A stretch of DNA of 10,000 bases from Candidatus Hydrogenedens sp. Lineage in GTDB: Bacteria; Hydrogenedentota; Hydrogenedentia; Hydrogenedentales; Hydrogenedentaceae. Each line of letters starts with the position of its first letter. Position 1 is the stretch's first letter. Below the pieces are notes generated by a model. The model was not told the DNA's origin and searched no databases. It was given only the letters and a program-made list of their open reading frames with translations. The stretch spans positions 1 through 10,000 of the forward strand of contig JAIWNQ010000195.1 in the NCBI GenBank assembly GCA_020216745.1, in the 5' to 3' direction. Positions 2,731-9,322 of this stretch are shown here, piece after piece. Position numbers and translations under genes: made by a program.

Positions 2731-2736
2731 TTGTTT

Positions 2737-3519
2737 ATGAGTTATCAGTTTTTAATTACTGAAAAGGTTAATTCCTGTTTTTGGATTACATTAAATCGGC
2801 CTAAGGTTAATGCTCTATCCCGTGAGTTGTTGGCTGAAATTTATCATGCGATTGAAGAAGCAGAGACAAGTCCTGATATTAAGGTTGTAATAATTACGGG
2901 AGGAGAAAGTAAGTTTTTTGCAGCTGGGGCAGATATTCCAACCATTGCTCAGGATTTAGATGACCCGATGGGAGAAGGGAAAATGTTATCCCAAGGAATT
3001 AAAACGATGAATCGGATAGAGACATGCTTAAAACCTGTTATTGCGGTAGTAAATGGCTTTGCATTAGGTGGTGGATGCGAACTTGCATTAGCATGTCATA
3101 TCCGTATAGCTTCGACCAATGCTAATTTTGGACAGCCAGAGATTAACTTAGGTATTATCCCTGGTTGGGGTGGAACGTTCCGATTACCACGGGTTATTGG
3201 AGAAGGAAGAGCAATGGATTTATTGTTAACAGGTAGAAGTATCACAGCAGATGAGGCTCTAAAATATGGGTTAATTACTAAATTGGTAGCCCCTGAAGAA
3301 CTAAAGAAAACTGCACTGGAATTAGCAGACCTTCTTGCCAGCAAGCCTCCTGTTTGTATCCGCCAACTTATTAAGTTACAGCAAAAGCGTATAGCAGACC
3401 CTGCCCATGCTTGTGAACTTGAGAAATTAGCCTTTGAACGATGTGCCAAAACGACAGATGCTCGTGAGGGAATTGAAGCCTTCTTAAATAAGAGACAGCC
3501 TCAATATAAGGGTCGATAA
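2737..3519 (+). CDS. Enoyl-CoA hydratase/isomerase family protein (crotonase)
   Basis: A soluble cytoplasmic protein of 260 residues, the normal length for the family. Crotonases act on acyl-CoA thioesters; the classic member hydrates trans-2-enoyl-CoA to 3-hydroxyacyl-CoA in beta-oxidation and related pathways. Visible motifs are LNRPKVNALS (19-28, CoA binding), FAAGADI (61-67, first oxyanion-hole segment), GFALGGGCELALAC (107-120, second oxyanion segment) and FGQPEINLGIIPGWGGT (131-147). Both glutamates of true hydratases are present, E115 in GGGCE and E135 in GQPEI, which favours hydratase over isomerase or decarboxylase activity. The C-terminal helix region includes DAREGIEAFLNKRQP, usual for the family. 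It stands alone, not next to thiolase, acyl-CoA dehydrogenase or 3-hydroxyacyl-CoA dehydrogenase genes, so the physiological substrate cannot be read from context. The start is set by the AAGGAG at 2725-2730. Confidence 0.93.
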   Translation: MSYQFLITEKVNSCFWITLNRPKVNALSRELLAEIYHAIEEAETSPDIKVVIITGGESKFFAAGADIPTIAQDLDDPMGEGKMLSQGIKTMNRIETCLKPVIAVVNGFALGGGCELALACHIRIASTNANFGQPEINLGIIPGWGGTFRLPRVIGEGRAMDLLLTGRSITADEALKYGLITKLVAPEELKKTALELADLLASKPPVCIRQLIKLQQKRIADPAHACELEKLAFERCAKTTDAREGIEAFLNKRQPQYKGR

Positions 3520-3770: not shown

Positions 3771-6152
3771 ATGAAAAATTATTATTGGAAGCTTTTTTTA
3801 TACGTCAAAAAATTTTTTTTGTGCATTACCATACTTCTAATTCTAATCTACCCATTGAAAGCATATCCCTTGAAAGCAGGGTCTGCCAAGGCGGAGATTA
3901 CACCTGATTTAGGTGTGCCATTAAATGGGTATGGTGCACGGTTAGGGAAAGGTGCACGTGCCGTTCATGACCCACTCTGGGTACATGTCCTTTATTTGAA
4001 TGATGACCAAACAGAGGTATTTATTGTATCGTTAGACCTTTGTGTTATTGACCGTGAACTTCGTGACCGCGTTATTGCAATGGCACCTGACAATATTTCA
4101 CCTACAAACATTATCATGACCGCAACGCATACACATAATGGCTTTGGTGGAATGTGTAAGTATTACCCAATTCGCTTTGTTTCAGGAAGATACATACCCG
4201 AACTAATTGAACGTACTGCACGAGTTATTGCCCAAACCCTTCGAGAAGCGAAAAATAACGCAAAAAATGCAGTATTAGGATATGGGACTATCCAGCAGAC
4301 AGATTTAACATGTAACCGACGCTATTCAGGTGGTCCTATGGACCCTCAAGTCGGTTTTATCGTTTCGGAAGATGCAAATGGGAATGAGATTGCTATTGTA
4401 GCGAATATGGCAGGTCACCCAACGTCTATTGGTGATGAGGATTTTTTCTCCTTCTCTGCTGATTATCCAGGCTATTTTTATCGTGAAATAGAAAAATTAG
4501 CCAGTCCAGGATGTGTACCCCTATTTTTGAATGGAGCGGAAGGAAACCAAACTATTCAAGCACCAGAAAATACTTCAGGGTGGGCAAGAACAGAGAAGGT
4601 AGGTCAATTATTAGCCCAACGGATTTATGACGCTCAAAAGAGCATACCGTTTTCAGATGTAAAACTAAAATTCAATTCACAAGAAATTGATTTGCCCATG
4701 AGCATTGCTGAGTTTTTCCCAAAAAAAATAGTGTTCCAATCATTACAGATCAATGACCTCGCGATTTCTTTCTTTCCTGGTGAGCTATGTGTTGAATATG
4801 CACTTCAGTTAAGAGAACTTGCGATTATGGCAGGGTTCAAAGCCCATTTTACTGTGGGCTTGTCTAATGATTACCTTTTATATTTTGTGCCCAAGCACCT
4901 TTTATTTGACCGCACTTATGAAGCAGGGATGCATTTCTTTGGACCGCAAGCGGAACAATGGGTTATTAATTCCTGTCTTAACGTATTAGGAGCGGAGCAG
5001 TTCAAACAGCAGATAGATAACACCACTCTACCTGAGAGAGAACAGACAGATATTGGGATAAGTATCATGCGGTTAACTGGAACACCTTACCAGAGAGGAC
5101 TTACACGGGGAAGATTATATAAAGAGATTGTTCAGAAACGATATGAACAACTTATTTTATCCCCAGTAAAAGAAGGCAAATATCTGCCCGAAGAAGGATT
5201 ATTATCTTCCTTGCCAACTTCATGGATTGATGCAAGTAGTATTATCCTACCAGCAATGGCTATTAGCATTCGTCCATGGGCTTCTATGGTGCATCCAGAT
5301 GTAATTGAAGAGCTGACAGGTCTTTCTGACGGGACAGAAGTAGCCTTCGATAAAATATGGCTTTTACAAAATGCACTCAATATAAAAACTGCCCAGACTT
5401 ATAACCCATTATTTGACACGCCTTTATGCACTGCTATCGCAGTATTTGGAGAACGCGCTGGAGCAAAAGATTTATTGATAGGGCATACAATTGACTGGGC
5501 TGAAAGTGAAACGCCAACTGTTTTTTACCATCAACCAAACGATGGTATTAAGTTTGTAGAAGTAAGTTTCCCATGGTTTTATGGTACCTTATGTGGGATG
5601 AATGAAGCAGGAATTGTACTATCAGTCACACGTGATACGAGCAAATTGGATTTATCTGAGAAAAACCCAGGACCTGAATTTACATTGAAACATATCTTGT
5701 CAAAGTTAACAAACTTTGAAACTGTGATTAGTGAAGTAGAAAAAATAAAATTTCCAGCTGGGTATCACACTATCATTGCTGGTAAAAACGCAAAAGGAAA
5801 ATGGGTAGCCCAAACGTTCCCCTCACATCCTTCGGAAGATATTTCTACGGAGGCATTGAAAAATCAAGGTGTTGTATTGGGGTGTGGTTCATTAGTGTCT
5901 TCATCTGAAACTACAGTAAAGAGATATTCGATATTACTTAAGAAGGTTGAGGAGGAGCGAATTATAAGTACGGACGAATTAAAAGCCATAATGACATTTT
6001 CTGATGAGGAGGACGTTTCACTTCCTCAGATATGGAATGAACAAAGTAGGTGCACTGTAATTTTTGAACCTACTGAAAAAAAGATATGGATAACGATAAG
6101 AAGAGATGATGGAAAACCATCAAGTTATATATCAATGGAGTTAAACAACTAA
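3771..6152 (+). CDS. Exported fusion: neutral/alkaline ceramidase-type domain + C45-type Ntn acyltransferase/hydrolase
   Basis: A protein of 793 residues with a signal peptide (1 to about 36; Lys-rich start, hydrophobic core 15-27). Residues about 37-405 match the neutral/alkaline ceramidase N-terminal family, zinc enzymes that hydrolyse the N-acyl bond of ceramide: AGSAKAEITPDLG, ATHTHNGFGG (H120, H122), GHPTS (H216), SADYPGYF, FPGE (E338) and GLSNDYLLYFVP (Y371 or Y368) supply the expected metal ligands. The position of the nucleophilic serine of characterised ceramidases (G-D-V-S-P-N) reads GNQTIQ, so Thr261 replaces it. After a short linker, residues about 432-785 look like peptidase family C45: RLTGTPYQRGLTRGRL, then LCTAIAVFG with C553 as predicted self-cleavage nucleophile, GHTIDW (D575) and GMNEAGI (N611). 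The Ig-like C-terminal domain of true ceramidases is absent. The frame is continuous. The substrate is not known; an N-acyl amide is inferred from both families. Confidence 0.85.
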   Translation: MKNYYWKLFLYVKKFFLCITILLILIYPLKAYPLKAGSAKAEITPDLGVPLNGYGARLGKGARAVHDPLWVHVLYLNDDQTEVFIVSLDLCVIDRELRDRVIAMAPDNISPTNIIMTATHTHNGFGGMCKYYPIRFVSGRYIPELIERTARVIAQTLREAKNNAKNAVLGYGTIQQTDLTCNRRYSGGPMDPQVGFIVSEDANGNEIAIVANMAGHPTSIGDEDFFSFSADYPGYFYREIEKLASPGCVPLFLNGAEGNQTIQAPENTSGWARTEKVGQLLAQRIYDAQKSIPFSDVKLKFNSQEIDLPMSIAEFFPKKIVFQSLQINDLAISFFPGELCVEYALQLRELAIMAGFKAHFTVGLSNDYLLYFVPKHLLFDRTYEAGMHFFGPQAEQWVINSCLNVLGAEQFKQQIDNTTLPEREQTDIGISIMRLTGTPYQRGLTRGRLYKEIVQKRYEQLILSPVKEGKYLPEEGLLSSLPTSWIDASSIILPAMAISIRPWASMVHPDVIEELTGLSDGTEVAFDKIWLLQNALNIKTAQTYNPLFDTPLCTAIAVFGERAGAKDLLIGHTIDWAESETPTVFYHQPNDGIKFVEVSFPWFYGTLCGMNEAGIVLSVTRDTSKLDLSEKNPGPEFTLKHILSKLTNFETVISEVEKIKFPAGYHTIIAGKNAKGKWVAQTFPSHPSEDISTEALKNQGVVLGCGSLVSSSETTVKRYSILLKKVEEERIISTDELKAIMTFSDEEDVSLPQIWNEQSRCTVIFEPTEKKIWITIRRDDGKPSSYISMELNN
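3849..3878 (+). repeat. In-frame 15-base tandem duplication at the signal-peptide end
   Basis: Bases 3849-3863 and 3864-3878 are adjacent copies, identical at 13 of 15 positions, and encode YPLKA twice (residues 27-36). Each copy supplies an L-K-A that could serve as signal peptidase site, so the duplication sits just where the mature enzyme is predicted to begin. Confidence 0.7.
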
Positions 6153-6160
6153 AAACAGAT

Positions 6161-7738
6161 ATGAGCGAAACGTTACGGGTATATTCAACCCCGAAATATG
6201 GTACGCGAAGGCATAGCCGAGGAATTTTTAAGTTTTTACTTAATCTATTTATTGTGTTGATTTTACTTGCAATTATTTTAACCCTCTGGCTATCAAGAGA
6301 TTCATATCCTGCAGAAAATTTTATTCCAAAGCAGACAAATTTCCAGATTTTCAGTCCTCGATTAATGCAAAATCGGATGCTTCTCGCAAATACGCCGTTA
6401 TGGAACTTAGTTGAACCAAATTCTCCAGCTATAAAGGTAAAGCAGTTATTATCAGACCAAGAGCAAATTCCTTTATGGGTCGTCAAACATTTAATCTATG
6501 ACTTCTTCTATTTTTCTATTAATGATCTCGATACATTTAATGATTATTTAATTATCGTTCGCTTATCCAGAGTCGGCTGTGTCCTTGAAACGTTATTTAC
6601 CTTATCCCACACAGTAGAAACAGATTGGGCAGGTGGGTTAAATTTAAAATTTTTACCTGACCAAAAACTTTATTACACACGAAAAGGACGAGTTCTATTA
6701 TTATCTCCAAACAGGCAAACAATGATTAATTCCATTACCCAAGATATCAGAACGCAATCCGAAACAATCCTTTCTGCAGAAATCTCAAAAAATCAGGAAA
6801 AACACCTCGCATGGGGGACAATAAAAATACCTTGGGAAAATATAAAATCTTTAATTCCCGAAGTAAAATTCTATATAGGATTAACAGAAACTCAGTTAGG
6901 TGTGAAAAGTGAAGCCACTATCCATCCTGACCCTGAAAAACCATGGACTTTATTATTAGCTCAATTAATTTCAAAACCTATTCGGGAACCGATAGAGGGC
7001 TCATTTTCATGTGCAATTGACACAGGAGTCCCCTTAAAGACATGGATTCGGGCTTTTGAAACAATTCCTACAACAACGGATATACTTGTTCCTCCAATAG
7101 AAAAAGAAATTTCTCTATTGGATTGGATAAAAACCTTTTCTCCTTTAGTCAATAATCAGTTCTATCTTTCGCTGGATGGCTTTTATGTAGATGAAATTAT
7201 CCCGTTTATGCCTAAATATTGTATAGTTGCAACAACACAGCCCAATATATGCGAAAGTTTTACCCAATCACTTACACGTATAAATGTGAACATATTGGGA
7301 GAAAAAAATAAAATATTGCCGACTGAGAAAGCAAATGAATTTATTTTCCCGATGTTCGGAAGTTCGCAGACAGATTTACATATTAATTGCTCAGAGAATC
7401 AACTAATCTTTTATACCAATGCGGAACTTGGAAACTTACTTACTGAGCACCTCAAATCCCAGATATCTAACCAAGAAAACAGTTCATCTTTTATCCTCCA
7501 GTTGAAACCTGAAAAACTAATAACGGAGTTTGAAAATTCTTTACTACCATTACAAGAGTCAAACATATTCAAGTTTCGTAACCCTGAGAAAATAAATAAT
7601 CTGTTCAGTAAAATCAAGATATTCAAAGAATTTAAGATTAAAATCAACCTAAATCAGGGGCAGGTTAAGGCAATAAGTATCTTAAATTTTGGTAATGAAG
7701 TTAGTCAAACAAACATGGAAAGTTCAAAACAAAAATAA
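6161..7738 (+). CDS. Uncharacterised single-anchor envelope protein, partner of the ceramidase-C45 gene
   Basis: A protein of 525 residues that I cannot assign to a family. Residues 1-21 are basic (RVYSTPKYGTRRHSR) and precede one transmembrane helix at about 22-44, so the N-terminus should be cytoplasmic and about 480 residues should lie outside the inner membrane. The outer part alternates short hydrophobic strands with polar stretches, with segments such as LYYTRKGRVLLLSPNRQ near 174-190. That style recalls DUF3352-like envelope proteins of planctomycete-type bacteria, but the likeness is architectural only. I see no catalytic motif, repeat or second membrane helix. The gene starts 8 bases after the ceramidase-C45 stop codon. 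The nearest Shine-Dalgarno-like GGAG (6137-6140) is 20 bases upstream, too far for normal use, so translation probably depends on coupling to the upstream gene. The pairing suggests a shared process at the cell envelope. Confidence 0.75.
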   Translation: MSETLRVYSTPKYGTRRHSRGIFKFLLNLFIVLILLAIILTLWLSRDSYPAENFIPKQTNFQIFSPRLMQNRMLLANTPLWNLVEPNSPAIKVKQLLSDQEQIPLWVVKHLIYDFFYFSINDLDTFNDYLIIVRLSRVGCVLETLFTLSHTVETDWAGGLNLKFLPDQKLYYTRKGRVLLLSPNRQTMINSITQDIRTQSETILSAEISKNQEKHLAWGTIKIPWENIKSLIPEVKFYIGLTETQLGVKSEATIHPDPEKPWTLLLAQLISKPIREPIEGSFSCAIDTGVPLKTWIRAFETIPTTTDILVPPIEKEISLLDWIKTFSPLVNNQFYLSLDGFYVDEIIPFMPKYCIVATTQPNICESFTQSLTRINVNILGEKNKILPTEKANEFIFPMFGSSQTDLHINCSENQLIFYTNAELGNLLTEHLKSQISNQENSSSFILQLKPEKLITEFENSLLPLQESNIFKFRNPEKINNLFSKIKIFKEFKIKINLNQGQVKAISILNFGNEVSQTNMESSKQK

Positions 7739-8377: not shown

Positions 8378-9322
8378 ATGACTAATTGCAACACACGAAA
8401 TACAATAATTCTCCTCGCCATATTCATATTTACATTGCACCTGTTTTTAGCGGGGGAAAACATAGTCAAAGTAAAGGTCATAGAAATTTCTGAAGGAGAC
8501 CTGTTTACTGCTCAAGGTATCGATGATTCACAAGAATTCAAGATAAGAATATACGGTATAGATAGCCCTGAACAAGGCCAAAACTATTTTGAGGAGGCAA
8601 AAAAATTTCTTTCAGACCTTATAAAAGATAAAGAAGTAAACATTGATATTTTGACACAAGATAGTATCGGCAATAAGGTTGCTCATGTTCAGACAGACGA
8701 TGCTACTAATGTTGAAGAATTGATGGTTAAGGAAGGTTATGCGTGGTGGGATGAGGAGAACGCAAAAGAAGCAATTGAACTGAAAAAACTTTGTGCAGAG
8801 GCTATTCGACAGAAAAAAGGTTTATGGGCTGATATGTCTCCATTATCTCCATGGGATTATCGTAGAGGTAAAGGGTTAGCACAGATAACCTATAAAGTGG
8901 AAAAGAAAGAAGAGAAGAAAACGGAAGAAAAAGAGGAAAAGAAGGTGCTAAAAGCCAAGGGGAATGAAGTATACAAAGGCACATTTTCTACTTCGAATGC
9001 ACCCTTTGTAGATGTTTCAAAAATCAATTTTAATGAAGTAAAAGTAGACCCAAATGAATTGTTAAGCAAGCATCTGCCTACAGTGGCAAAAGATTCGTCA
9101 GGAAATGCTATCGGCTTGGCAGTCCCAAATATTAACCAAATCCCTTATGCTAATGCTCTTGGTTTCCAAGATGGTGATATTATTTCGTCTGTGAATGGTA
9201 TTCAAATAAATGACTTCTCTCAAATTATGCCAATATATGAACAGCTTAAAGGTGTGAAGGAATTATCTGTTCAGGTAATACGGAATGGAAAGCCGATAAC
9301 ACTTAATTTCCGCCTCCCCTAA
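8378..9322 (+). CDS. Exported thermonuclease (SNase)-fold protein with C-terminal PDZ domain
   Basis: A protein of 314 residues with an uncleaved or cleaved N-terminal signal at about 8-25. Residues 28-165 are an SNase-like domain: VKVIEISEGDLFTAQG (E39, D41), RIYGIDSPEQGQ (R57, D62, E65), then LMVKEGYAWW and the family's typical end KKGLWADMSPLSPWDYRRG. R57, D41, D62 and E65 match Arg35, Asp21, Asp40 and Glu43 of staphylococcal nuclease. The Arg87 position, normally in YGR followed by a small residue, reads IGNKVAHV, so N99 replaces the catalytic arginine and activity is doubtful. A Lys/Glu-rich linker spans 174-194. Residues about 222-312 are a PDZ domain resembling that of the type II secretion protein GspC: GLAVPNINQIPYANALGFQ, DGDIISSVNGIQIND and VQVIRNGKPITLNF. 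The start ATG follows AAAGGGA by about 5 bases. Its role could be nucleic-acid binding or degradation in the periplasm, tethered through the PDZ domain. Confidence 0.87.
   Translation: MTNCNTRNTIILLAIFIFTLHLFLAGENIVKVKVIEISEGDLFTAQGIDDSQEFKIRIYGIDSPEQGQNYFEEAKKFLSDLIKDKEVNIDILTQDSIGNKVAHVQTDDATNVEELMVKEGYAWWDEENAKEAIELKKLCAEAIRQKKGLWADMSPLSPWDYRRGKGLAQITYKVEKKEEKKTEEKEEKKVLKAKGNEVYKGTFSTSNAPFVDVSKINFNEVKVDPNELLSKHLPTVAKDSSGNAIGLAVPNINQIPYANALGFQDGDIISSVNGIQINDFSQIMPIYEQLKGVKELSVQVIRNGKPITLNFRLP

Follow-up and report, generated by a model that had tools for sequence, protein, structure and literature searches.

A zinc amidase fused to a C45 Ntn domain and its membrane-anchored partner: a possible N-acyl-lipid module of Hydrogenedentota

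Architecture of the Locus

The stretch analyzed here (the window) comprises the first 10,000 nucleotides of contig JAIWNQ010000195.1 from Candidatus Hydrogenedens sp., a member of the phylum Hydrogenedentota. It encodes a fusion protein, in which a neutral-ceramidase-like zinc amidase domain precedes a C45-type N-terminal nucleophile (Ntn) domain, and a partner protein directly downstream (Table 1). The pair is conserved across nearly the whole phylum, also in lineages where the fusion has lost its active sites.

The open reading frame of the fusion has no internal stops, and Pfam and NCBIfam profiles recognize two complete amidase-type domains in it, as stated in the original prediction made from the letters alone. 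Neither a stop nor a frameshift separates the two domains, and C45 features are present past residue 430, the C45_proenzyme model aligning to residues 436-772. The protein is predicted to be exported, in line with the same proposal, on the basis of an N-terminal helix suited to this purpose.

Table 1. Features of the fusion locus
Feature	Position	Strand	Residues	Remarks
Enoyl-CoA hydratase gene	2731..3519	+		optional upstream neighbor
Fusion gene	3771..6152	+	793 amino acids	ATG start; profile scans and predicted structure
N-terminal helix			2-26	export or anchoring
Neutral-ceramidase-like zinc amidase domain	3861..4994	+	31-408	
Predicted zinc ligands	within 3861..4994	+	H120, H216, E338, Y371	further site residues H122, R183, Y383
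Linker			409-429	
C45/Ntn domain			430-793	
C45 pro-chain (alpha part)	5058..5426	+	430-552	low-confidence loop 543-551 at its end
C45 beta part	5427..6149	+		starts with predicted nucleophile C553
Partner gene	6161..7738	+	525 amino acids	directly downstream of the fusion

Active Sites of the Fusion Protein

The Ceramidase_alk model (PF04734) matches residues 36-184 of the fusion with 57.1 bits, against a Pfam cutoff of 32.1. In the profile alignment to the neutral ceramidase PaCD of P. aeruginosa (2zws), on which the PaCD residue numbers were counted by hand, H120, H216, E338, and Y371 correspond to PaCD H97, H204, E411, and Y448, while H122, R183, and Y383 correspond to H99, R160, and Y460. 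We take these seven PaCD residues to be zinc ligands and further site residues, and their counterparts are invariant in all 66 rows of the alignment. The first four had been named correctly from the letters; the alternative Y368 falls outside the invariant columns, and H122, R183, and Y383 were absent from the earlier list.

Compared with neutral ceramidases (PaCD and the human enzyme, 4wgk), the domain is compact, its 376 residues spanning PaCD 2-485 with about 100 residues fewer. The structure matches stop at PaCD 485-491, the Ig-like C-terminal domain of neutral ceramidases is lacking in the fusion, and the C45 fold follows instead, which bears out the replacement suggested previously. The ceramidase equivalog model NF041649 is not reached (26.9 bits, cutoff 1200). 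Counting the fusion gene, eleven PF04734 matches fall in ten frames of the 3.1 Mb window genome; most of these ceramidase-like proteins are single-domain, and their number amounts to an expansion.

As for the second domain, AAT (PF03417) matches residues 566-777 with 24.6 bits against a Pfam cutoff of 23.2, and all 313 positions of C45_proenzyme (NF040521) are covered with 84.3 bits, 0.7 under the cutoff of 85. The loop 543-551 is the sole very-low-confidence stretch of the fusion model and lies directly before C553, which agrees with the earlier choice of this cysteine as the nucleophile. The C45 part is predicted to cut the chain before C553 by itself, the one hint of this in the model being the loop.

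The site residues of IAT are C103, N119, D121, N246, and R268 according to PMC13044924. In the alignment, D575 matches IAT D121 and is invariant (66/66 rows), while position 573, aligned to N119, is a threonine in the fusion and an asparagine in 54 of the 66 rows. R718 is likewise invariant (66/66) and may be the equivalent of R268. For the oxyanion asparagine (IAT N246, acid ceramidase N320), no conserved asparagine was found at the position that corresponds by sequence alignment. According to PMC5915598, changes of acid ceramidase N320 and D162 significantly lowered self-cleavage and R333Q impaired hydrolysis almost as strongly as the loss of the cysteine, whereas hydrolysis suffered least from N320A; the apparent gap may therefore be tolerable in the fusion.

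The fusion differs from IAT (2x1c), of the C45/AAT family, in that this asparagine was not found by alignment and that an export helix and the zinc amidase domain precede the C45 fold. Its identity to acid ceramidase (5u81) and NAAA (6dxw) is only 15-16%, and no link to sphingolipids emerged for it.

Occurrence in the Phylum

A protein search gave 228 relatives among 7998 scored candidates, 120 of which were listed. Both domains are present in all 120 listed homologues, according to profiles made from the window fusion and 65 of the homologues. Precomputed Pfam annotation places PF04734 on every listed homologue except P0012. A genome scan with two conserved motifs located 53 loci; those that match past the zinc domain are labeled Hydrogenedentota, Hydrogenedentes, or uncultured bacterium, with L036 and L048 as exceptions, and in L051 and L053-L061 the match is confined to the zinc domain.

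In a set of 68 genomes of the phylum (11 family codes, 44 genus codes), 67 give some match when single-domain paralogues are counted in, and the fusion itself is found, whole or as a piece, in 63. It is missing from G012, G022, G038, G044, and G053; in G038 and G053 it may simply be absent from the assembly, because a piece of the partner sits at the contig end. It is present in every one of the 38 genomes with a completeness of 90% or more and a contamination of 5% or less (G066 as a piece). The fusion is a single-copy gene per genome across nearly the whole phylum.

The two exceptional labels are of some interest. L048 (JAJFFM010000132.1, 3069 bases) is labeled Robiginitomaculum and carries a dead fusion with the partner gene; it is probably a misbinned contig, since its fusion is 63% identical to that of the Hydrogenedentota bin L050 and the two share an isolate prefix. 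The Nitrospiraceae label of L036 (JAACEL010000465.1, 4002 bases) is probably wrong, the same match occurring in G045 of Hydrogenedentota.

The Partner Gene

The partner protein has a basic N-terminal tail, one membrane helix (residues 22-44), and an extracytoplasmic part. The latter appears to resemble the fold of TP0453 of Treponema pallidum (3k8g-3k8j), a moderate match over 220 residues with 7% identity. TP0453 has a lipid-binding role. The partner is about twice as long and carries an N-terminal membrane helix; no lipoprotein anchor was found in it, residues 1-60 being free of cysteine. For the window protein, neither Pfam nor NCBIfam gives a family at E 0.01, and of 46 aligned members two at most were matched by any one Pfam family (best E 0.013). 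Three close relatives, 53-56% identical, are named Candidatus Hydrogenedens.

A first rough clustering placed one downstream family at 32 of 41 loci, and a directed search found the partner downstream at 37 of 44, the remaining seven loci ending less than 100 bases past the match. Wherever a nonredundant locus offers 600 bases of room or more, the partner follows (50 of 50). Counted by genome, it is present at 54 of 55 loci, and the sole miss (L129) is a 459-residue ceramidase paralogue, which leaves 54 of 54 fusions; these adjacency counts omit fusion pieces of 450 residues or fewer. In all 54 cases the partner start codon lies -8 to +11 nucleotides from the fusion stop, with overlap in 42 (starts chosen by script), and translational coupling is therefore favored. 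The partner occurs in 64 of the 68 genomes; G012, G022, and G044 are without both genes, and in G061 the contig ends inside the fusion, hence no partner is visible.

Relatives with Lost Active Sites

In 62 aligned fusions (61 from Hydrogenedentota genomes and L048), a set distinct from the 66-row alignment, C553 and the four zinc ligands served to judge the state of the sites, within the limits of each piece. Both sites are intact in 46 of them. Eleven have lost at least one zinc ligand together with C553, four (L078, L081, L084, and L086) have lost C553 only and keep the zinc site, and one (L082) has lost zinc ligands and D575 but keeps C553. The C45 part is thus damaged in all 12 zinc-broken fusions, 11 of which are without three of the four ligands, with L087 lacking Y371 only.

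On average the zinc-broken fusions retain the seven zinc-domain site residues at a rate of 0.27, compared to 0.83 for 42 other invariant residues of the domain (Mann-Whitney p 2e-4, a guide only, as the rows are related); H120 is mostly kept (0.92). The ratio of nonsynonymous to synonymous substitution rates (dN/dS, simple method) is 0.11-0.31 for five dead or half-dead pairs and 0.08-0.21 for five intact pairs; one further intact pair was saturated, and dS is high in distant pairs. The dead and half-dead fusions are under purifying selection. The partner, moreover, adjoins all 10 zinc-broken loci with room, L048 included.

In the best tree the 12 zinc-broken rows fall into four groups, and the four fusions without C553 only form a single group, while parsimony requires only two changes for the zinc site. 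In the approximately unbiased (AU) test a single clade of all 12 is not rejected (p 0.089), and a thinned tree, in which L077 joined L080, leaves the matter equally undecided (p 0.098); an independent-pairs test had two pairs only and no power. Repeated loss appears likely, the trees being compatible with one event as well as with several.

Neighboring Genes and Substrate Clues

Of the 49 fusion loci that offer 1000 bases of room or more (paralogue L129 left out), 17 have an enoyl-CoA hydratase gene upstream. LpxC matches occur in 63 of the 68 genomes and Lnt-type matches in 67, over the cutoff in 57. These genes suggest that N-acylated lipid A and lipoproteins, too, occur almost throughout the phylum, and both are possible N-acyl substrates, though nothing ties them to the module. 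A link to ornithine lipids was considered and rejected, OlsB-like genes (PF13444) occurring in 18 genomes with a distribution not shared with the module.

Home-made ceramide is unlikely as a common substrate, because serine-palmitoyltransferase-like genes are few and none is over the cutoff: the model matches in 15 of 68 genomes at E 1e-60 and falls below 1e-140 only in G050, G021, and G045, all with intact fusions. For the enzymes of these three genomes (L133 in G050, L134 in G045, L135 in G021) serine palmitoyltransferase is the best model, L133 reaching 504 of 640 bits, a hint that a few Hydrogenedentota make sphingolipids.

TIGR01825 (alpha-oxoamine synthases) matches in 16 of 68 genomes at E 1e-50, among them eight of the 11 with zinc-broken fusions. 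A serine palmitoyltransferase in the latter was rejected, the enzymes of G026, G035, and G027 scoring best as BioF, 3 to 14 bits under the NCBIfam cutoff. BioA- or BioD-like neighbors cluster in eight of 18 fetched loci; the neighbor in L147 is BioA, over the cutoff, and BioD was named by eye, the sole scanned frame having no match. For L141, L142, and L143 the frames picked by script were not those of the enzyme itself. BioF-type genes occur in G022-G027 and G033-G037 (two family codes), several with such neighbors, and their overlap with many dead-fusion genomes probably reflects shared ancestry.

In L024 (3856-5208) and L025 (3838-5115), contigs that L106 and L103 appear to repeat, the fusion is preceded at a distance of roughly one gene by a separate C45 gene, and a single-domain ceramidase paralogue is found near the pair in L045 (3648-5189) and L110 (9351-10334).

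Two other window genes can be mentioned here. Positions 153-1526 encode a 457-residue multipass membrane protein that by eye resembles CPBP-type intramembrane proteases; neither Pfam nor NCBIfam matches it at E 0.01. Positions 8378-9322 encode an SNase-like domain (55-152) and a PDZ domain (242-310) behind an N-terminal hydrophobic stretch.

Proposed Role of the Module

The reading we favor, to which we give about an even chance, is that of a periplasmic two-gene N-acyl-lipid module with a lipid-presenting partner, which in some lineages has become a noncatalytic scaffold. After export, self-cleavage of the C45 part before C553 would leave a particle of two chains that holds two distinct amidase sites, a neutral-ceramidase-type zinc site and an IAT/acid-ceramidase-type cysteine Ntn site. 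The partner would be anchored in the inner membrane by its helix, with the TP0453-like domain outside the cytoplasm, where it most likely binds an N-acylated envelope lipid and presents it to the fusion; we infer that the two form a physical complex. Acyl groups would next be removed or transferred at the two sites, and the fatty acid set free may be broken down at least where an enoyl-CoA hydratase gene precedes the fusion. In lineages without either site, the pair would still serve in lipid handling or as a structure, a role independent of catalysis.

The folds of neutral and acid ceramidases solve the same reaction independently. Both folds being those of ceramidases, an N-acyl lipid is the natural guess for the substrate, and their presence in one chain, conserved phylum-wide with a new membrane partner, suggests a substrate that needs both. 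The original prediction suggested channeling between the domains; the 12 fusions with both parts damaged and the four without C553 only, which retain the protein and its partner where these can be seen, speak against this as the whole story. Since dead versions are kept, the fusion-partner particle would matter without chemistry too. A more specific form, a core envelope machine in which the two amidases act in turn on an N-acyl lipid delivered by the partner and which persists as a dead scaffold in some lineages, is a tentative proposal that we regard as rather doubtful.

The strongest alternative reverses the emphasis: the pair would be a lipid-binding or structural envelope complex, with catalysis as an optional relic. 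This would explain the loss of both sites, the invariable partner at zinc-broken loci, and the purifying selection on dead genes. However, chemistry appears to be under selection in most lineages, because 46 of the 62 fusions keep the four zinc ligands and C553, and we consider this alternative unlikely.

The fusion could also be an ordinary secreted amidase that feeds on outside N-acyl compounds, with no role in the envelope. The many PF04734 paralogues in the window genome and the occasional enoyl-CoA hydratase gene are consistent with scavenging, but the fusion is nearly always single-copy and tied to a membrane-anchored partner, and dead versions make poor sense for feeding; this explanation is improbable. 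Equally hard to accept is a self-cleaving hinge, in which the sole task of C45 would be to cleave the chain so that the zinc amidase matures or is released, with no separate substrate for C45: the loop before C553 and the possibly absent oxyanion asparagine would suit it, but the C45 fold is complete with D575 and R718 invariant, and the zinc site seems independent of the cut because the four relatives without the nucleophile retain it.

Conclusions

Among the titles looked at, a literature search found nothing that joins these two families or connects a ceramidase with this phylum, in keeping with the earlier statement that the pairing was not known as a described enzyme; automatic annotation gives both domain names on one relative, P0061. 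We regard the enzyme kinds as known and the partner as undescribed. The co-conserved partner and the natural dead versions make a noncatalytic role of the module open to testing, and a mostly uncultured phylum gains an uncharacterized gene pair that almost all of its members share.
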